DNA from: Actinomycetota bacterium
GTDB taxonomy: Bacteria > Actinomycetota > Acidimicrobiia > Acidimicrobiales > MedAcidi-G1
NCBI GenBank assembly: GCA_002721755.1
Contig: PBLL01000007.1
Coordinates: 1 to 42,395 of the forward strand
DNA: 42,395 bases
Reading direction: 5' to 3'
Below the pieces are notes generated by a model that was given only the letters and a program-made list of their open reading frames with translations, did no database searches and was not told where the DNA came from. This document shows positions 11,796 through 38,595 of this stretch, in pieces (the stretch's first letter is position 1; every line of letters starts with the position of its first letter). The translations under genes and the position numbers were made by a program.

Positions 11796-12837
11796 TCTTT
11801 GGACTTTTGTAAAAGGACAGGGACAAGCTGTCGATTTTTTAAAAAAAGCTGTAAATGCACCTGTACATGCCTATCTTTTTGTTGGTCCGGAAGGTGCAGG
11901 TAGAGAGGAAATAGCAAGAGTTTTTTCAGGTTCTATTTTTGCTGAATATGAAGAAGGCAACAATCTTGATAGATGTAAAGATTTGGCTTGGAGAGGTATT
12001 CATCCTGATTTGTCAATAATTGAACCTGAAGGCCGAGGTTTAAGAGTTTCTGATGCACAGAGAATAATTACTGAAAGTTCACGCTCTCCAGTTGAATCTC
12101 AAAAGAAAATTTTGATTGTAAATCGCTTTGATACTGCTGAACCTGAAGCAGTCGCGAGCTTGCTAAAAACTATAGAAGAACCATCACCAACCACAATTTT
12201 TATACTTTTAGCAGAGACTATTCCAGATTCACATATCACAATTTCTTCTAGATGTGTCAGGGTTGATGTGCCTGCTATGACAGTTGAAGCACTTGCTGAT
12301 CTATTGAAAAATGAAGGGATTCCAACAGAAGAAGCAGTTCTTTTATCAGAAGCTTCTGCAGGTAATCTCGGCAGAGCGCGTTTACTGCAAGAGGATGCTT
12401 CATTTACTATTCGACAAGAAGCATGGAGAACTTTGCCGGATCGTTTAGACGGAAGCGGAGCTGCGGTATCTATTGCTGTTGAAGAATTGCAGAAAATGAT
12501 TGATGATGCTCAATCTCCGCTTACTGACCGTCATAATCAAGAATTAGAACATCTTGTTGCACAAGAAGAGGTTTTTGGAAGTCGCGGTTCGGGGCGACAA
12601 GAAGTTATTGAACGTCACAGACGCGAAATTCGTCGTTTACGTGATGATGAACTGCGATTCGGCTTAGCCACACTTAGCAGAAGGTATAGAGATTTAGGTA
12701 TTGAAAATAAAAATTCTGGTGGTTTAGATGCTGTTGGAGTAATTACTGGAGCGGCATCAGAGTTAATGAGAAATCCAAATGAACGGTTATTTTTACAGGC
12801 CCTTTTTTTGAATTTATCAGTAAAGATTGAGGCTTAA
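11782..12837 (+). CDS. holB: DNA polymerase III delta' subunit
   Basis: This is a clamp-loader subunit that helps place the sliding clamp on primed DNA. The 351-aa AAA+ fold has a P-loop-like FVGPEGAGREE in which the usual lysine is R41, as expected for the non-hydrolysing delta' subunit. The conserved SSRC (155-158) serves as the arginine-finger region, and IEEPSPTTIFIL is typical of the family. The zinc-binding module normally present near residue 65 has been reduced: only C65 and C158 are visible. It starts inside tmk and overlaps the convergent PEP-utiliser gene by 4 bases. Confidence 0.92.
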   Translation: MQETDLWTFVKGQGQAVDFLKKAVNAPVHAYLFVGPEGAGREEIARVFSGSIFAEYEEGNNLDRCKDLAWRGIHPDLSIIEPEGRGLRVSDAQRIITESSRSPVESQKKILIVNRFDTAEPEAVASLLKTIEEPSPTTIFILLAETIPDSHITISSRCVRVDVPAMTVEALADLLKNEGIPTEEAVLLSEASAGNLGRARLLQEDASFTIRQEAWRTLPDRLDGSGAAVSIAVEELQKMIDDAQSPLTDRHNQELEHLVAQEEVFGSRGSGRQEVIERHRREIRRLRDDELRFGLATLSRRYRDLGIENKNSGGLDAVGVITGAASELMRNPNERLFLQALFLNLSVKIEA

Positions 12838-14489
12838 GGAAGTTCAATAATTGTCACAGTTCCATTATTGCCATCTACTTGAATCAAAGCTCCGTCAGGT
12901 ATCCTTTCAGCAGCTTGATGCACGCTAACCACACAAGGAATTCCAAATTCTCTACTGACTATTACCGAATGACTCATAGGAGCCCCCACATCGACTACAA
13001 CTCCAGCAGCAGGAATGAAAAGTGGCGTCCAAGCTGGATCTGTAATTGGAGCTACCAGAATTTCACCTTGTTCCAATCCGCGAGGATCTCCCGGATCAGT
13101 TACTATTTTTGCTCTACCGGTTATTTCACCAGGACTACCTGAAAGTCCAGTTAAGGTTTCACCGATTTGAACAGGCTTAACGGAACTAGTTTTCTTATTC
13201 CATTCAGAAATAGGAGGAACTTCCCCATTTACTATGAACGGTTCTTCGAGAGAGGAGAGTAATTCGAAATCTTTCCGTCTTTGAGCGATGGTTTTTTTAA
13301 AGGAGTTTGGATCTTCTAGAAAATCATCGAGTTCATCATTTAAAAGAAGAAAAATATCATTCGCCTCTTCTAAGTAACCTTCGTTAGTCATTCGTTCACC
13401 CAATTCATAAATCGGCAATCTAACTTCGTGGATAGCCATCATTTGAGTTAGTTTCGTTCTTTCGCGTGTTGGCACAAATATTTTAGAAACTCTTAAACCT
13501 GTTTCTAACAATTCCAGTGCTTCATCATTGCCGGCTAAAGCTTCTCGTGCTTGTTTTTCGGCGGCTAAACGGTCAGCAGCTGCTTGTGCTTGTTTTGAAG
13601 ATGGTGAAAAATTGTCGTCAACTTTTCTCATTGCATCTATGGCTGCAGTAACCGGATTTGGGTCAACTTCCCAAGTGGGGTTTGCAGCATCCCATTCTCC
13701 TGGTCCGCGGCATCCATGTTCTTTTAGAAAAGATTCGAATTTATTTGCGAATTCCGAAGAATTTTTTTCTAGACGACTTAGTTCCCAAATATCAACTGTC
13801 ATAGGTACAGAGTCAATCCCATCAAGACCTGAAATAAGTCGTCCGGACAAACTAGGATCTATTTCTGCACATACCTGACTTAGCAACCCTGGTCCAACCG
13901 CTGATGCAGTTCCATAGACATAATATGGTTCAAAAAATTCACGGATATATGAAGTGACAGAACGAGCTCTATTAATCAAATCTTCGTTTGAAAGGGTTTT
14001 CAGATCTGGTCTATTTTCACGGAGTTCAAGAATTGTTTTCCTGTCCTCCATTAGTTCCTGAGGTTCTTCAGCAATTGTCATAATCCACCCCATAGTGGCT
14101 TCAATTTGTTCTTCTAATTCAGGTCTTTTGTCATCCGGGTGAGGAGTATGAGGAACAACATCAGGATGAGAACCCAACAAAATGTCATCCATTTGTTGAG
14201 CAGACATTCCTGGACTACGTTCCCCCACTAATCTGATTAATGACATGTTGAGATATACATAACCACCGAAACAAGCAATGAAATCGGGTTGATCATGATT
14301 TATTTCATCAGGTGCAGAAGATCCCCATCTAAAGTGACCATTCATCCAACCAAAAGCAACGCCGGCTCCCCAAACTAAATCCCATCCAAGAGGACTACAT
14401 GGGTTAGGCATAATCTCACCAACATTTGACCTTGTGTACATAGGGAAACGTTCGCTTGGCGCCCAATCGGTTATCCATTTTTCATCCAT
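12834..14489 (-). CDS. PEP-utilising enzyme, swivel (mobile) domain protein without ATP-grasp
   Basis: The C-terminus (about 440-551) is a phosphohistidine swivel domain of the PEP synthase, PPDK and rifampin phosphotransferase type. The phosphorylatable histidine is H507 in GAPMSHSVIVSREFGIPCV. The N-terminal 430 residues begin with a TRSNVGEIMPNPCSPLGWD motif like that found in rifampin-phosphotransferase relatives; they are helical and charged. No ATP-grasp nucleotide-binding domain is present, so a complete phosphotransfer cycle would need a separate partner, and none is encoded nearby. The product is 551 aa. The gene may share a transcript with the AlaX gene upstream, with a 9-base gap. 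The substrate is unknown. Confidence 0.85.
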   Translation of the reverse strand: MDEKWITDWAPSERFPMYTRSNVGEIMPNPCSPLGWDLVWGAGVAFGWMNGHFRWGSSAPDEINHDQPDFIACFGGYVYLNMSLIRLVGERSPGMSAQQMDDILLGSHPDVVPHTPHPDDKRPELEEQIEATMGWIMTIAEEPQELMEDRKTILELRENRPDLKTLSNEDLINRARSVTSYIREFFEPYYVYGTASAVGPGLLSQVCAEIDPSLSGRLISGLDGIDSVPMTVDIWELSRLEKNSSEFANKFESFLKEHGCRGPGEWDAANPTWEVDPNPVTAAIDAMRKVDDNFSPSSKQAQAAADRLAAEKQAREALAGNDEALELLETGLRVSKIFVPTRERTKLTQMMAIHEVRLPIYELGERMTNEGYLEEANDIFLLLNDELDDFLEDPNSFKKTIAQRRKDFELLSSLEEPFIVNGEVPPISEWNKKTSSVKPVQIGETLTGLSGSPGEITGRAKIVTDPGDPRGLEQGEILVAPITDPAWTPLFIPAAGVVVDVGAPMSHSVIVSREFGIPCVVSVHQAAERIPDGALIQVDGNNGTVTIIELP

Positions 14490-25355: not shown

Positions 25356-26357
25356 ATGGAGTCAATTTTGAATCAGAATCCAATTCGAATAGCCGTAACA
25401 GGAGCAGCAGGTCAGATTGGCTATAGTCTTGTCTTTCGCATTGCTAGCGGTCAACTTTGTGGTCCCGATCGCCCTGTAATACTCCAGTTATTGGAGATAC
25501 CACCCGCAATGGGAGCATTGGAAGGCGTTGCGATGGAACTTGATGATTGCGCTTTTCCTTTACTGGAGAAAATAGAACTTTCAGACCAAGCAGAAACAGC
25601 TTTTGAAGGAGCCAATGTAGCTCTTTTAGTTGGATCTAGGCCAAGAAGTCAAGGAATGGAACGCAAAGACCTTTTGGAGGCAAATGGTGAAATATTTACT
25701 GTTCAAGGGTCAGCGTTGAATGAGAAAGCTGCAGAAGATTTACGTGTTCTAGTGGTTGGGAATCCGGCTAATACCAACTGCCTCATAGCAATGAACAATG
25801 CACCAGATATACCCAAGCAAAGATTTTCAGCTATGACTCGTTTAGACCACAACAGGGCAATAACTCAAGTTGCTCAAAGGTTAGAAATATCGACAACAGA
25901 AATAAAGAATATGACAATTTGGGGCAACCATTCTGCAACTCAATATCCCGATCTTTTTAACTGCAAGGTTTCTGATAAATCTGCTGCTGAAGTTATAGAT
26001 GATCGAGATTGGATAGAAAATATTTTTATTCCTTCAGTTCAACAAAGAGGCGCATCCATAATCGAAGCACGTGGTGCCTCTAGTGCTGCTTCTGCTGCAA
26101 ATGCTGCAATTGATCATGTCCGAGATTGGATTAGTGAAACTCCTGAAAACGATTGGGTTTCCATGGCCATATGTTCAGATGGAAGTTACGGAGTAGAAGA
26201 AGGCTTAATTTCATCTTTTCCCGTCACATGTTCAAAAGGTGATTGGGAAATCGTAAAGGATCTTGAACTAGAAGACTTTTCCAGAATAAAAATAGATACT
26301 TCTGTTAAAGAACTTTCTGAAGAGCGAGATACTGTCTCTGACTTAGGTTTAATTTAA
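25356..26357 (+). CDS. mdh: Malate dehydrogenase (group 2 type)
   Basis: This TCA enzyme oxidises malate to oxaloacetate with NAD+. The 333-aa protein has the Rossmann loop [12 protein letters not shown] (14-25). It also has the substrate-binding arginine segment [15 protein letters not shown] (93-107), [13 protein letters not shown], the catalytic aspartate in RLDHNRA (D164) and the catalytic histidine in [13 protein letters not shown] (H192). The extended arginine loop and [11 protein letters not shown] near the C-terminus are typical of the long, cytosolic-type group. It has a probable promoter of its own, after the ABC exporter operon. Confidence 0.96.
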
Positions 26358-26366
26358 GAATTGTTT

Positions 26367-26801
26367 TTATAACCACTCAACAGAGTCACCCTTTTTTACC
26401 GAGCAATTATTAATTACAGCCCCTGTGATTCCACCTCTCCATTCAGGTTTTAATGCGTCTCTAAGTCCTTCAGAGACTTCATTCATTAGTCTGCAAGGAA
26501 CTGTTTCACCAGTTACTTCAATTTTTAGTTCACCGATTTGAAGGATTTTTCCGATAGTTTTTTCCAAATTCACTCCACTAACTATGAAATTCGCCCTTCT
26601 TTCTTTAGGCTCTACAAATTTGCTGATACTTTCAGTAGCTGCTTCCCAGCTTTCTTTTGAAAGAACAGTTACTTGACGGTTCGTGTGAGGTTCTTTTGCC
26701 GAACCTTTAATTCCCTCACCTGCAATCATTTCTGTTTCTGAAAGAGAAATCATTGGCTCACCATGAGATCTTTTCAACCAAATTTCTAATAATTCGCCCA
26801 T
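26367..26801 (-). CDS. MOSC-domain protein
   Basis: This is a 144-aa stand-alone MOSC domain (molybdenum-cofactor sulfurase C-terminal fold). The invariant cysteine lies in GETVPCRLMNEVSEGLRDAL. An AGEGIKGSAK-like segment near the N-terminus and RRANFIVSGVNLE match the family pattern. MOSC proteins deliver or bind sulfur for molybdenum enzymes, or act in small reductive systems such as YiiM; the specific role here is unknown. It lies 18 bases downstream of the SCP2 gene on the minus strand and is probably cotranscribed with it. Confidence 0.85.
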   Translation of the reverse strand: MGELLEIWLKRSHGEPMISLSETEMIAGEGIKGSAKEPHTNRQVTVLSKESWEAATESISKFVEPKERRANFIVSGVNLEKTIGKILQIGELKIEVTGETVPCRLMNEVSEGLRDALKPEWRGGITGAVINNCSVKKGDSVEWL

Positions 26802-26819: not shown

Positions 26820-27218
26820 TTATCGAACATTGATACCAGTTACAGGTCGGATTGTTTCGAAAAGATTATCTAGTTGTTCAAAAACTATTGATTTCTCAAG
26901 AAGTTTTCTTGGGTCACCACCTATATCCATTGTTCCTTCGATGATCGCAGTTAAAGGATTTATCTTTCCTTCAAATAAAGAAACTGCAGTAGATAGGTTG
27001 GTTTCGAACCAAACATCGGGTTCAGAGTCACCTCGAAAAGAAATATCTATGTCACCTTTATTGATTTTTATTTGCCAAGCAATAATTGTTTCACCAATAA
27101 CTCTGTACTCGATAACAAGCTCAATATCATTTGTTGCTTCAGATAAACCTTTATGAGATTGTGCGACAGAATTCAATTTCTCTATCCACTCATCAGAAAG
27201 GTATTTGATTTTTTTCAC
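26820..27218 (-). CDS. SCP2-like sterol/lipid-binding protein
   Basis: The 132-aa protein resembles single-domain SCP2-like proteins. It has alternating strands (IEYRVIGETIIAWQIKINKGDIDISF) and then PDVWFETNLSTAVSLFEGKINPLTAIIEGTMDIGGDPRKLL, the loop and helix typical of the SCP2 sterol-carrier family. SCP2 domains bind acyl-CoA or sterol-like ligands. The divergent operon beyond it contains a DUF7064-like protein, so a lipid or isoprenoid role is plausible but unproven. Confidence 0.75.
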   Translation of the reverse strand: MKKIKYLSDEWIEKLNSVAQSHKGLSEATNDIELVIEYRVIGETIIAWQIKINKGDIDISFRGDSEPDVWFETNLSTAVSLFEGKINPLTAIIEGTMDIGGDPRKLLEKSIVFEQLDNLFETIRPVTGINVR

Positions 27219-27277: not shown

Positions 27278-27625
27278 GTGGAGAAGATTGGAAATGGTCA
27301 AAAAACCTTTGATTACAAACTTGTTCGAGGCATCTGGACACGTCTAGAAGGACCAGAAAACGTTCTAGATTTAATGGACACAGGAATAGAAGGTGTAATT
27401 GCAGTCATTAGAGATGCTGGAGCTACGTTCCTATCACCAATTTTCGATGAGTTATCTGGAGTGATTTGCACAGAGGGTACTATCAGAAGCCATATCGGAA
27501 TAGTAAGTCGAGAATTTCAAATTCCGGGCATCATTGCAGCCGAGCTATTTAATGAGCCTGAAAACGGCACTGAGATAATTCTTGATGGCACAGGACCAGA
27601 CGGTCAAATTTATTTAGCTGATTAA
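27278..27625 (+). CDS. Stand-alone PEP-utiliser phosphohistidine swivel domain
   Basis: This 115-aa protein consists almost entirely of the swivelling domain that carries phosphoryl groups in PEP synthase and PPDK-type enzymes. The histidine is H72 in EGTIRSHIGIVSREFQIPGI. The following glycines and ENGTEIILDGTGPDGQIYL close the barrel as in other members. It has neither an ATP-grasp nor a PEP/pyruvate domain. GTG 27278 is the first start of the frame, and ATG 27294 is out of frame. It ends one base before the next gene, so the two are tightly coupled. The phosphate donor and acceptor are unknown. The domain is shared with the gene at 12834, but the proteins are not otherwise alike. Confidence 0.8.
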   Translation: MEKIGNGQKTFDYKLVRGIWTRLEGPENVLDLMDTGIEGVIAVIRDAGATFLSPIFDELSGVICTEGTIRSHIGIVSREFQIPGIIAAELFNEPENGTEIILDGTGPDGQIYLAD

Positions 27626-27626
27626 C

Positions 27627-28739
27627 ATGAATGCAACCACAGAAGTAAATAACTATTTGAAAGCAATTAATCCAATTTCAGCTCACCTAATGGCTGAAAG
27701 AACTGGCTACTCATCTCAGTTGATACCAGTAACTTCTTACGTAACCGTCTCAGCTATTGAAGCTTTTCTAAGATACCCAGAAGTTATAGGAGTGATAACA
27801 CAATCCATGGAACCTGAAGAGATCGGGACCCTAGCTAGAAGACCTGCTTGCCAAGCTAATTCAGTTTTTCTTTGGGGGGTGGCAAACTTTTGGTTGCTTG
27901 GACGAAACATAATGTCTTTAATCGATCCATCACTAGACGATGTTTCAAGTGCATACAAAGTTTTAGATTTTTGGGGTCGCGTATCGCGTTCATACAGAGG
28001 TGGTGATTTTTTACATTCAGCTGATAATGGAAACAGGATAGATGTTTTGAAACCATCTCAATTGGACTTTTTAATGCAATCTGCTAGTCCGGTCGATGAT
28101 GATAGAAAAGCTTTAATAAGAAATTTGAATGCGACTTTAATCAATTACCTTTTTTTGCTTTATTTCGATACTCGTGTCGGACATGGAGACACTGGACCTT
28201 ACAAACTAGAAGATGGTCGAACAATAATTGTTCGAGACTATTACCGGCTTAGTAAAAGTGATTTCTGGTGGTCAGAAGTTGCTGCTGAATTACCTTATGA
28301 AAATCTGACAGCAATTTTTGTTTTAGATCCAACAGTCGAAGTAACAGTTACTGATTTTGGAACTTCAGTGACAACACCTGAAGACTATTTGAATAATTTA
28401 GAGTCGTTTGCGATTTTTGCAAGCAAAAATGGTCATCTAGAACCAATAGATGATGATCAATTTGAAAATTTTGTTTCGGAAATAAAACAAGTTCAAAAAA
28501 TTCACTATAGAAATATCGTTGCTATGGACAGAGATGAACGCATCAAATGCGGGGCGTATGTTTATTTCACTTTCCTAAGACCTTTTGCTCAAATAGCAGG
28601 AGTTGAAAAAGAAATTGACTGGGAATGCCCGCGTGACATCCCAAAAGACATTTACCCTCTTGTCACAGCTGAAGTCGAGCCACCCCAACAGGATCCCAAT
28701 AGTGATCCATACCCCTACTATGAGGAGATTAACAAATGA
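27627..28739 (+). CDS. Protein of unknown function, 370 aa
   Basis: I do not recognise this protein. It is soluble and mixed alpha/beta, with no signal peptide and no obvious ATPase or metal motif. Notable segments are an acidic and aromatic middle (FDTRVGHGDTGPYKLEDGR, then a run with RDYYRLSKSDFWWSEV) and a proline-rich acidic tail (VEPPQQDPNSDPYPYYEE). It sits between a swivel-domain protein (1-base gap) and a DUF7064-like protein (4-base overlap), so it almost certainly acts with them. The swivel-domain neighbour could make it a phosphoryl-transfer partner, but nothing in its sequence proves this. Confidence 0.75.
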   Translation: MNATTEVNNYLKAINPISAHLMAERTGYSSQLIPVTSYVTVSAIEAFLRYPEVIGVITQSMEPEEIGTLARRPACQANSVFLWGVANFWLLGRNIMSLIDPSLDDVSSAYKVLDFWGRVSRSYRGGDFLHSADNGNRIDVLKPSQLDFLMQSASPVDDDRKALIRNLNATLINYLFLLYFDTRVGHGDTGPYKLEDGRTIIVRDYYRLSKSDFWWSEVAAELPYENLTAIFVLDPTVEVTVTDFGTSVTTPEDYLNNLESFAIFASKNGHLEPIDDDQFENFVSEIKQVQKIHYRNIVAMDRDERIKCGAYVYFTFLRPFAQIAGVEKEIDWECPRDIPKDIYPLVTAEVEPPQQDPNSDPYPYYEEINK

Positions 28740-29668
28740 GTGTTCCTACACCAGCTGATGAAAAACGCCATAAAGAAGGACCAGAAAGACTCTGGAGTGA
28801 ATCATGGTATATGGATTGGTTTGATAATGAAGGAAAAAACGGAGGGTACGTACGGATGGCGGTGTGCCCCAACTTAAATGAATGTTGGTTTTGGTGCTGT
28901 ATAGTCGGTCAAGATCAGAAGCCTATTTTTATTATTGATCATGAAGTCGATATACCTGAACCGCCAGGATTAGAAATCAGATCTTCCGGTTTATGGGCAG
29001 ACTTAGTAGTTGAAAGCCCACTGGAATATTTCAGTGTTGGTGTAGAAGCGTTTGGAATTGTTTTAGACGACCCGATGGAAGCTTACGGGGACATGAGAGG
29101 TGAAAGGATCCCCGTTGGTATTGACTTGGGTTGGGCAACTGATTCTTACTCAGAACAATCTGATGATTCAGAGCTCTGGGCTTTTCATTATGAGGTGACC
29201 ACCAGATACGAAATTCCATGTCGAGTATCAGGTGAAATTCAAATCGGTGAAAATAAGTCTCAAGTTGATGGCTGGGGTCAACGAGACCATTCATGGGCAG
29301 AAAGAGACTGGTGGGATAAAGGATGGACCTGGTTTTCAGGACGTTTGAATGATGGATCACGTTTTCATGCAGTTTCTGTCGAAGGTCATCATTTAGGTAT
29401 TGGATATCACTCTTCTCCAGAGGGATTAATTGGAGAAAACAGAGTTGTTTCTGAACCACTAATAGGACATGAAGGAATTCCAACTAGCGGGCATGTAAAA
29501 CTTGGAGACACAATCATTGAATTCGAACCGGTCGCGTGGGCTCCAGTGCTTTTAACAGATCCTGATAATGGTTCTATTTCACGTTTTCCGCGCGGTTTAG
29601 TTTCTATACAAACTGATGATGGCAGAACAGGCCACGCATGGATCGAATTCAATCAACCGCAGAGGTGA
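28736..29668 (+). CDS. DUF7064/AttH-like beta-rich protein
   Basis: This 310-aa protein is rich in Trp, Asp and Gly and beta-strands. It has patterns like SGEIQIGENKSQVDGWGQRDHSWAERDWWDKGWTWFSG, matching the lipocalin-like CrtC/AttH/DUF7064 superfamily common in actinobacterial lipid and steroid gene neighbourhoods. The GQRDHSWG-like motif is a hallmark of that group. Members include hydratases of carotenoid-like substrates (CrtC), but many have no known reaction. It overlaps the preceding unknown gene by 4 bases and ends the three-gene operon. Confidence 0.78.
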   Translation: MSVPTPADEKRHKEGPERLWSESWYMDWFDNEGKNGGYVRMAVCPNLNECWFWCCIVGQDQKPIFIIDHEVDIPEPPGLEIRSSGLWADLVVESPLEYFSVGVEAFGIVLDDPMEAYGDMRGERIPVGIDLGWATDSYSEQSDDSELWAFHYEVTTRYEIPCRVSGEIQIGENKSQVDGWGQRDHSWAERDWWDKGWTWFSGRLNDGSRFHAVSVEGHHLGIGYHSSPEGLIGENRVVSEPLIGHEGIPTSGHVKLGDTIIEFEPVAWAPVLLTDPDNGSISRFPRGLVSIQTDDGRTGHAWIEFNQPQR

Positions 29669-29675
29669 AGTTAAG

Positions 29676-30620
29676 TCATTGATTCTTTCGATGGGGGTTT
29701 TTAGAAATTGAGTCAATTACCAGAACAAGTCCAAAAGCAAAAAAACCTAAAATTAGAGGAATTAGAAGATTATTCGAACTAGGCCAATCGAGAGCTGTCC
29801 CAGAAACTAGTTCATTCCCATCGTCATTAATAACACCTACTCCATTTGGCCAAGGCCAAAGAACTCTAGAAGATCCAAGCATCAAACCGATTAAACAAGA
29901 CAGAACAAAGTCACGATGTTTATCCAACAAGGTTTTTAGAAAAGTGGAAAATAATGCAAGCCCAAGGATTGCACCAATCGAAAGAGCAGAAAGTTCTGCA
30001 AATTCCTGGTCATCAATCGCTCCTAACACAGCAGCATAATTTCCCATAATCAGTAATAAGAATGCACCGGAAACACCCGGGAGTATCCAAGCGCAGATAG
30101 CAATGAACCCTGAAAAAAAGAAAATCCATAAAGACGAGTTTTCAAAAGCAGTTGAGCGAAGACCAAGAAGAGTAAAAAAAATACCTGCAGTAACTAATGA
30201 AACAAAAGCTTTCTGTAGATTCCAAGAATTAAGTAATGAATAAGCAATAACTGTAGAACCTGCAACCAAACCAAAAAAAAGACCCGACATCGGTTCAGGG
30301 TGTTTCTCAAGAAGATCTACCATGATCCCTGAAATAGAAACAATAGTTACGAGCATTCCAAAAATAATCGGAAGCAAAAAAGAAAAATCAACCTTCCGCA
30401 AAGATTGACGAAAACCCAGAAAATCTGCTTTTAAAATTTTTCCCAAACTAAAAGCACAGTTACTTATATTTTCCAGAAGTTTTTCATAGATGCCAAAAAC
30501 CAGAGCTATCGTCCCACCAGAAACCCCAGGGACCACATCTGCTACACCCATACCAATTCCTCTAGAGAAATTAGTCACGATTTTTTTCATCTGAAAAATA
30601 ATCGAAAGAGGTTTATTCAT
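29676..30620 (-). CDS. DUF368 family undecaprenyl-phosphate translocase (PopT-like)
   Basis: This 314-aa polytopic membrane protein begins with the DUF368 signature GIGMGVADVVPGVSGGTIALVFGIYEKLL. It carries a second internal copy of the motif around CAWILPGVSGAFLLLIMGNYA, an inverted-repeat architecture. Members of this family (PopT) have been shown to move undecaprenyl phosphate back across the cytoplasmic membrane for cell-wall polymer synthesis. The start overlaps the end of the thioesterase gene by 8 bases; an alternative start is the Met at residue 11. It converges with the DUF7064 gene. Confidence 0.9.
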   Translation of the reverse strand: MNKPLSIIFQMKKIVTNFSRGIGMGVADVVPGVSGGTIALVFGIYEKLLENISNCAFSLGKILKADFLGFRQSLRKVDFSFLLPIIFGMLVTIVSISGIMVDLLEKHPEPMSGLFFGLVAGSTVIAYSLLNSWNLQKAFVSLVTAGIFFTLLGLRSTAFENSSLWIFFFSGFIAICAWILPGVSGAFLLLIMGNYAAVLGAIDDQEFAELSALSIGAILGLALFSTFLKTLLDKHRDFVLSCLIGLMLGSSRVLWPWPNGVGVINDDGNELVSGTALDWPSSNNLLIPLILGFFAFGLVLVIDSISKNPHRKNQ

Positions 30621-37492: not shown

Positions 37493-37596
37493 AATTCCCC
37501 TCCTACTTTCTAGATAAGAATCTACTACCTGAAAGCTCAGAGCCAACAAGGCGATAAATAGAATTGCAAGCAGACTCCATTAGAGTGCTGGTCATA

Positions 37597-38595
37597 ATGA
37601 ATTTGTTTCCAGAGTTAATTAATGAAAGCTCATTAAAAGAATGGTTTGACACTCAAGAGCTTGGACAAGGCGAAGACATTTCTTTTCAGCGTGTAAAAGC
37701 AGGAGAATCAAACGAAGTTTTTATAGTTAAACGCTCTACGAATTTTTGGGTGTTACGTAGACCTTCCTTGGTTCCTTTATCATTTGATGGTTCCAATAAA
37801 ATTATGGAAAGAGAATTCAGATTTCAATCCGCTTTAGAAGGAACAAAAGTACCTCACGCAAAAGCGATTTCTTTGTGTAAAGATATTTCGGTTACAGGAT
37901 CTTTTTTCTATGTGATGGAATGGATTGATGGTCTGGTTCCTACTGACCCGATTCCCGTTGAACTAGGTGGGGTTGATTCTTATCATCACATAGCGATTCA
38001 ACTTCTTGAAGCGTTAGGGGAATTGGCTTCAGTCGACTATAAGGCTGCTGGTTTGACTGACTTAGGTCGTCCAGAAGGTTTTCTTGAAAGACAAGTGGGT
38101 CGTTGGAAGGGTCAACTTGATTCGTATCGAAATAGAGAAATTCCTGGAATAGATGAAGTAGCAGAATGGTTGGAAAACAATAGACCAAAAAAAATTAACC
38201 CAGGAGTAATGCACGGTGATTATAACTTTCATAACATGCTTTTTTCTAAAGATAAAAAACCTCGTTTATTAGCTGTTTTGGATTGGGAAAATGCAACCAT
38301 TGGTGACCCGTTAATGGATTTGGGATATTTAATGGGAACACTTGATTTTGGTAAAAAAAATATGCCTAGTAAGACTAAAGCTATTTCTTTATGGTCTGAT
38401 CGGGCCGGAATCAAAGCGGAGTCACTTGGCTGGTATGTAGTGATGAGCAAGTTCAAACTTGCCTGCATGTTGGAAGGCGTTTATGTTCGTCAAGTTGAAA
38501 ATTCGACTAGAGAAACAACGACATATTTAGGAGAAATGGTGGTCAAACTTATTGATGAGGCACTCGAATTTATTCCTAAAGCTGCAGATTGGTAA
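37597..38595 (+). CDS. Phosphotransferase family protein (APH/ACAD10-like kinase fold)
   Basis: This is a protein-kinase-like phosphotransferase of about 332 aa. It has the N-lobe (VKAGESNEVFIVKR), the catalytic loop VMHGDYNFHNMLF, and the metal-binding LAVLDWENATIGDPLMDLGY. The closest relatives by motif are the acyl-CoA dehydrogenase-associated (ACAD10-like) kinases in actinobacteria, not antibiotic-resistance enzymes. A lipid-metabolism link fits the divergent MaoC neighbour. ATG 37597 is preferred over TTG 37564 and GTG 37585 in the same frame, although no strong RBS decides. Confidence 0.86.
   Translation: MNLFPELINESSLKEWFDTQELGQGEDISFQRVKAGESNEVFIVKRSTNFWVLRRPSLVPLSFDGSNKIMEREFRFQSALEGTKVPHAKAISLCKDISVTGSFFYVMEWIDGLVPTDPIPVELGGVDSYHHIAIQLLEALGELASVDYKAAGLTDLGRPEGFLERQVGRWKGQLDSYRNREIPGIDEVAEWLENNRPKKINPGVMHGDYNFHNMLFSKDKKPRLLAVLDWENATIGDPLMDLGYLMGTLDFGKKNMPSKTKAISLWSDRAGIKAESLGWYVVMSKFKLACMLEGVYVRQVENSTRETTTYLGEMVVKLIDEALEFIPKAADW

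Follow-up and report, generated by a model that had tools for sequence, protein, structure and literature searches.

A lone phosphohistidine swivel protein and its unnamed partner family in marine Acidimicrobiales: a candidate split small-molecule phosphotransferase

The operon and its proteins

The window analysed here is the 42,395-nucleotide contig PBLL01000007.1 (positions 1 to 42,395, forward strand) of GenBank assembly GCA_002721755.1, from an Actinomycetota bacterium of the MedAcidi-G1 lineage. It is contig C6 of a 1.55 Mb genome that is 78% complete, the close relatives of which are MedAcidi-G1 and other marine Acidimicrobiales or Acidimicrobiia. The window contains a compact operon encoding a free-standing phosphohistidine swivel domain, a 370-residue protein of an unnamed family, here called P370, and a DUF7064/DUF7065 protein (Table 1). 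A first-pass annotation, made from the sequence alone, had described three genes joined by a one-base gap and a four-base overlap, and the coordinates of the open reading frames bear this out: the swivel gene ends in TAA, a single base (27626) precedes the ATG of P370, and the overlap ATGA is common to the end of P370 and the start of the DUF7064 gene. The swivel gene starts with GTG, with ATG at the same place in several orthologues.

Table 1. Coordinates of the operon and of other features of the window
Feature	Positions	Strand	Basis
Lone swivel (PF00391), 115 residues, proposed mobile phosphoryl carrier	27278..27625	+	Pfam, invariant residues
Swivel His72 codon, proposed phosphorylation site	27491..27493	+	Read from sequence; alignment
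P370, 370 residues, from a family without a name; proposed to bind the substrate as the swivel's acceptor partner	27627..28739	+	Linkage to swivel
Most conserved P370 block, residues 176-216, candidate active site	28152..28274	+	Alignment, 24 rows
DUF7064/DUF7065 protein, 310 residues, proposed phosphate-eliminating lyase, optional	28736..29668	+	Pfam, Foldseek, profile
SCP2 sterol-carrier-like protein (PF02036), divergent neighbour	26820..27218	-	Pfam E 2.1e-9
MOSC domain protein (PF03473), neighbour that comes and goes	26367..26801	-	Pfam E 9e-13
HpeH/PpsA-like protein of 551 residues, with a swivel and an RPH-type substrate region	12834..14489	-	Pfam, PDB match
Malate dehydrogenase	25356-26357	+	
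PF04018 undecaprenyl-phosphate-translocase-like gene	29676-30620	-	Pfam; convergent on operon
APH/EcKL-type kinase gene	37564-38595	+	Pfam

The swivel protein was correctly described as lacking an ATP-grasp or phosphoenolpyruvate (PEP) domain, as the only Pfam family found in its 115 residues is PF00391 (PEP-utilizers; E 3e-10, 40 bits against a cut-off of 23.1, residues 38-105). Residues G67, S71, H72, I75, S77 and R78 are invariant in all 40 aligned family members, and the catalytic-loop histidine is also kept in 21/21 rows of a second alignment. Compared with the swivel of an HpeH-like protein, it gives a profile-profile probability of 97.6.

The absence of a recognisable fold in the second protein was also confirmed, using Pfam (no family at E<=1), NCBIfam (chance-level matches only) and the PDB by sequence (no match at E<=10); an AlphaFold2 (AF2) model searched with Foldseek was set aside as evidence. 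A match to a family unrelated to phosphotransfer, which the annotation had regarded as the counter-case, did not appear, and P370 is tied to no family of either kind. Two candidate relatives were rejected as chance: thioredoxin reductase, with best E values of 1.2 and 0.56 in PDB profile searches using 27 and 24 P370 sequences, and a GvpA-like NCBIfam match of about 30 residues (32-61) in 10/24 members, at best E 0.001. Profile comparisons with the HpeH-like substrate region, the pyruvate phosphate dikinase (PPDK) barrel, the helper protein described below and DUF7064 gave hhalign probabilities of 0.3-0.7, and homology is not claimed; no P370 was found in viral contigs. The family is nevertheless well conserved, as an alignment of 24 rows, down to 23% identity, retains P34, Y38, P51, F176, D181, R183, G185, D188, G190, P191, R203, W215, P251, G309, Y313, P319 and W332 as invariant. 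Several of these arginines and aspartates would be what a phosphoryl-acceptor site needs. P370 is a conserved family without a name, fold or function that is tied to a phosphohistidine carrier in Actinomycetota and on proteobacterial catabolic plasmids.

Linkage of the swivel protein to P370

P370 was found in 47/149 related genomes, in six of 396 genomes sampled across the phylum with a profile search, and in eight plasmid records by tblastn (five from Rhodococcus, the others from Paraburkholderia, Methylibium and Novosphingobium), six of which were inspected. The bearers are Acidimicrobiales, other Actinomycetota and Rhodococcus, as well as Paraburkholderia and Methylibium plasmids. Linkage was counted for 52 copies of P370, spread over 50 non-redundant loci, 30 of them lying in the window's family and 20 outside it, with same-contig duplicates (e.g. 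L006/L035 and L009/L038) counted once; the neighbourhood is therefore not unique to the source genome. In 50 of the 52 copies, P370 is fused to or adjoins a swivel belonging to this same family: the swivel is fused in two and, within 1.5 kb, lies upstream on the same strand in 43, upstream on the opposite strand in two and downstream in three. The two copies without a swivel are L050, in which P370 starts at the contig end, and L072, on the Novosphingobium plasmid.

Firstly, this linkage survives rearrangement, as the order or strand of the two genes is changed at loci such as L046, L049, L065 and L070. Secondly, it extends to gene fusion: plasmid pROB02 of Rhodococcus opacus B4 carries a triple fusion of swivel, P370 and helper (L068, 7422-9851), annotated only as a PEP-utilizing enzyme, and plasmid pA of R. 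pyridinivorans P23 a swivel-P370 fusion. As rearrangements and fusions retain the two together, their linkage appears to be selected, rather than merely an inherited order. Thirdly, presence and absence coincide. A full-length match to the lone-swivel profile (E<=1e-47) occurred in 11/11 P370-positive genomes and 0/24 P370-negative ones, with an intermediate match (7e-30) in the P370-negative genome G061; counting G061 as positive, Fisher's test gives p = 3e-8, although the independence of genomes assumed in this calculation does not hold. Both genes are missing from family members G009, G013, G014 and G017, which are 94-96% complete. The core of the locus is the swivel and P370, and of the neighbourhood conservation that the annotation proposed to check it is this pair that is conserved, the DUF7064 and MOSC genes being inconstant.

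It is probable, and well supported, that the swivel and P370 form a phosphotransfer pair; that P370 is the acceptor subunit, holding the substrate, is a less secure proposal, at slightly below even odds. Searches of the open-licence PMC literature turned up neither P370 nor a free swivel with a partner, and the papers that they reached do not describe a lone swivel protein that is almost always accompanied by a partner from a family without a name. The swivel, PPDK-like protein and lyase fold all belong to known kinds. A function for P370, once found, would give swivel phosphotransferases a new acceptor module.

A close comparison is with HpeHI, CreHI, PpsAB and RPH, for which one report (PMC12167813) describes a swivel histidine that receives phosphate at a nucleotide-binding protein and delivers it to a second protein or domain, which binds the small molecule, with components able to work in trans; HpeHI is an example in which the swivel and the ATP-grasp part are separate proteins cooperating in trans, and the histidine is essential. 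In those systems the swivel is fused to an RPH-type substrate region, whereas that of the window is a separate protein of 115 residues, P370 shows no homology to that region, and the ATP-grasp partner is present in some distant P370 clusters but was not found in the window's lineage. Hence we class the trio not as a member of the HpeHI/PpsAB group, lacking both the fused substrate region and the ATP-grasp partner, but as a variant of the swivel small-molecule phosphotransferases.

Candidate routes for charging the swivel

A PPDK-like ATP-grasp protein lies inside the locus at 5/20 P370 loci outside the family (L061, L064, L069, L071 and L073), and a further PPDK-like gene is annotated about 8 kb from P370 of L068. 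The PEP barrel of these clustered proteins is weak in L061 and undetected in the other four, and the 597-residue protein of L071 combines ATP-grasp and swivel without a barrel. Together with the invariant histidine, these clusters support the phosphoryl-transfer module suggested by the annotation. Those that combine P370 with a PPDK-like protein and a helper would represent a new branch of swivel phosphotransferases, alongside HpeHI, PpsAB and RPH.

The annotation had also suggested searching for a co-occurring lone ATP-grasp (PPDK_N) protein. None was found in the source genome, in 30/36 P370-positive family relatives, or in any of 28 genomes of genera g1, g2 and g4, 12 of which are 91-98% complete, whereas all 36 relatives have PF00391 proteins. 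Hence PPDK_N appears to have been lost lineage-wide while several swivel proteins were kept, raising the question of what charges their histidines. One answer, which we regard as improbable, is that the swivel no longer carries phosphate, and serves P370, as an enzyme of a different kind, in a structural or allosteric capacity. A PPDK_N protein would then be superfluous, in keeping with its absence from the lineage, and this reading agrees with a window neighbourhood that holds no donor gene, but the invariance of His72, Ser71 and Arg78 in 40/40 sequences is as catalysis would require, and an ATP-grasp part is found inside some clusters elsewhere.

Another answer may be encoded elsewhere in the genome, where a 517-residue half-PPDK (L053 2524-4077, contig C3) contains only PF00391 and PF02896. 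It lies between glyS and dnaG, genes named from their sequence, and recurs across the family: it has matches in 36 of the 40 genomes tried, with open frames of 515-625 residues in genera g1, g2 and g4, and frames of about 890-1021 residues instead in G015, G019, G021, G023, G029 and four non-family genomes. The swivel histidine and the PEP-site positions, which we take to be R561, R617, E745, N768, D769 and C831 in Clostridium symbiosum PPDK numbering, are kept in 31/31 aligned sequences, one glutamate being read as X. Likeness to PPDK and to enzyme I (EI) of the phosphotransferase system (PTS) extends to the swivel domain and, in the half-PPDK, the PEP barrel; the N-terminal EI/HPr-binding domain, in contrast, was not found by Pfam on the half-PPDK, and the lone swivel has no barrel. 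As PPDK_N is missing from the lineage while a half-PPDK with an intact PEP barrel is kept, PEP may be the donor. This is the only candidate found for charging the swivel in the window's lineage, and we consider it unlikely to be the actual route.

The window also encodes an HpeH/PpsA-like protein, with a PF00391 domain (E 3.2e-21) and a match to the RPH-type PDB chains 5fbs and 5hv1 (E 1e-34 over 236-548). Its family occurs in 34/41 relatives, with several members per genome, those of the source genome including others at the start of C35 and the end of C41; no PPDK_N partner for them was found in that genome. A broader scenario, which is more doubtful still than PEP charging of the swivel, is that in this marine Acidimicrobiales lineage both the swivel-P370 pair and the HpeH-like proteins lost their ATP-grasp partners and became PEP-driven, with the half-PPDK as a shared charging station. 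The lineage would then possess an EI-like relay in the absence of a PTS, at the end of which P370 would stand as an acceptor subunit of a new class, together with a phosphate lyase resembling 25-phosphosteroid lyase (25-PSL).

A different precedent is VadK (Rv1127c) of Mycobacterium tuberculosis, which PMC13400623 describes as a half-PPDK of ATP-grasp and swivel, able to phosphorylate itself and to adjust the methylcitrate cycle, with an operonic partner, Rv1126c. Some distant P370 clusters share this layout, with ATP-grasp and swivel in one protein, the barrel lost or degenerate, and a helper of about 200 residues adjacent. The window, however, has no VadK-like protein, its swivel stands alone, the half-PPDK of the source genome is the opposite truncation (swivel and barrel, without ATP-grasp), and the VadK system, as presented there, does not include P370.

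The helper has a helix-turn-helix-like N-terminus, a C-terminal motif SxHxxWxxxHExL, and no Pfam or NCBIfam name. We take Rv1126c to be similarly about 200 residues long. Helpers accompany 8/20 non-family P370 loci, and in other Actinomycetota lie beside PPDK-like genes of the ATP-grasp and swivel type at 3/10 helper loci. In the window's lineage there is a single copy, between SURF1 and dapA (L138 6795-7442, contig C39). Its presence in 31/31 P370 genomes first tried had suggested a third component acting in trans, an idea dropped for this lineage, as the helper is kept in 9/11 P370-negative versus 17/19 P370-positive family genomes.

These associations bear on whether the swivel and P370 form a relay that, as VadK does, signals or modifies an enzyme, with P370 as the controlled protein or sensor and DUF7064 as a passenger. 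The operonic partner of VadK, the helper's place beside ATP-grasp and swivel genes, the joint presence of helper and PPDK-like genes with P370 in several distant clusters, and the frequency with which malate dehydrogenase neighbours the locus in several Acidimicrobiales families (9/19 loci) would all suit such a relay. It is nonetheless an unlikely explanation, since the helper is unlinked to P370 in the window's family, and both the many invariant arginines and aspartates of P370 and its catabolic plasmid neighbours (coenzyme A (CoA) ligases, alcohol/aldehyde dehydrogenases, P450 and biotin carboxylase) fit an enzyme.

The DUF7064 protein and a possible elimination step

The third protein is of the DUF7064 type, as annotated, matching PF23212 (DUF7064; 8e-16, 58.9 bits versus 24.7) and PF23213 (DUF7065; 1.4e-15, 58.3 bits versus 27). 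The DUF7064 profile matches 24/50 P370 loci, 18 of them among the 30 in the window's family, and Pfam adds DUF7064 at L064 and L070; some loci are too short to exclude the gene. It is a frequent but dispensable third part, reaching Betaproteobacteria. By sequence, the window's protein has a weak link to AttH (2ich, E 0.015). Searched with Foldseek, its low-confidence AF2 model matched 19 chains at E<=0.001, all with probability 1.00, which were AttH (2ich, E 1.2e-8), 25-PSL (9g4c, E 3.5e-8, query TM-score (TMq) 0.53), kievitone hydratase and pericyclases; the fold of 25-PSL is one that AttH, kievitone hydratase and pericyclases share. In sequence searches, its counterparts encoded in the P370 clusters of R. 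opacus and R. pyridinivorans matched 25-PSL (E 1.4e-35 and 4.1e-25), and the window-type profile meets them at hhalign probability 72 (E 3.3e-5; controls 0.1-0.2), suggesting that the window's protein is a distant relative of 25-PSL. The Methylibium DUF7064 protein had no match to 25-PSL by sequence.

Phosphorylation of a tertiary alcohol by 25-hydroxysteroid kinase (25-HSK), followed by elimination of the phosphate by 25-PSL (PDB 9fzn, 9g2i and 9g4c), is a real catabolic dehydration route, according to PMC8449060 and PMC11061730. In the former 25-HSK is a single 43-kDa protein, acting through a ternary complex without a phosphoenzyme, whereas in the window the swivel pair would be the kinase. 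We infer every enzymatic step of the following mechanism (the phosphotransfer, the acceptor role of P370, the alcohol substrate, the lyase step and the donor) from features that are computed: the swivel's identity and invariant histidine, the linkage and fusions, the PPDK-like clusters, the absence of PPDK_N and the predicted AttH/25-PSL-like fold. The 115-residue swivel would be a free phosphohistidine carrier charged on His72 in trans, by the PPDK-like ATP-grasp protein of the same cluster in some distant relatives and possibly from PEP, on the half-PPDK, in the window's lineage. It would then dock on P370 and phosphorylate a hydrophobic alcohol bound there. Where present, the DUF7064 protein, for which phosphate elimination is proposed because of its likeness to AttH and 25-PSL, would remove the phosphate, resulting in dehydration or other activation of the alcohol. 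That the operon as a whole works in this way, with a lyase acting after a split small-molecule phosphotransferase, we regard as evenly balanced, and the lyase activity of the DUF7064 protein, taken separately, as a tentative assignment, less likely than not to hold. A lipid-like substrate, as the annotation had proposed, is plausible given the SCP2 neighbour and the third protein's likeness to AttH and 25-PSL. That 25-PSL-like proteins so often accompany the pair points to a second route, independent of APH, of activating alcohols for elimination, which would be relevant to the degradation of sterols, terpenoids and tertiary alcohols.

Several observations weigh against this mechanism. The role of P370 is assigned by association, as it has neither a recognisable fold (AF2 mean confidence (pLDDT) 56 from eight sequences, with nothing at E<=0.001 in Foldseek) nor detected homology to the RPH/HpeH-like substrate region (hhalign probability 0.5). 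The source genome offers no proven phosphoryl donor, no PPDK-like gene was found at 14/20 non-family P370 loci within the stretch examined, and G061 has the swivel, DUF7064 and SCP2 without P370. The AF2 model of the window's DUF7064 protein is poor (pLDDT 55.5), and its sequence matches 25-PSL at E 0.98 only. Finally, the 25-PSL-like gene of R. opacus directly adjoins a kinase of the EcKL/APH type, a class that we take to include 25-HSK, and so the lyase may act for that kinase and not for the swivel.

This last point extends to the window, in which the DUF7064 protein could be unrelated to the swivel pair and partner an APH/EcKL-type alcohol kinase instead, as 25-PSL partners 25-HSK: 37567-38592 matches PF01636 (APH, 9.6e-37) and EcKL, and DUF7064 was not found at 12/30 family loci where the swivel and P370 stay. 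We judge this unlikely, as DUF7064 is beside the swivel or P370 in several Acidimicrobiales families, is separated from the swivel by one gene in G143 and immediately precedes P370 in Methylibium, and in the window its gene overlaps P370 whereas the APH gene is 8 kb away.

The divergent SCP2 and MOSC genes of the annotation are both real, but only the former is a constant companion in the family: SCP2 adjoins the swivel throughout the family, and is found at six further loci outside it, whereas MOSC was not found at many family loci and is incidental. The idea of a polyprenol kinase, raised by the convergent PF04018 gene, was set aside, as this gene clusters with P370 only at family loci, and not outside. 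The plasmid neighbours of P370, among which B12-binding, AMP-binding and MeaB annotations also occur, fit alcohol or ketone catabolism. In Methylibium petroleiphilum PM1 (RPME01; L070 6402-17092), DUF7064, P370, swivel and helper lie just before the genes with these last three annotations, and the cluster is possibly linked to tertiary-alcohol degradation, with which we understand this strain to be associated. The triple-fusion gene of R. opacus adjoins EcKL-type kinases in addition to the 25-PSL-like protein, and in the window a MaoC-type hydratase gene adjoins the APH/EcKL-type kinase.

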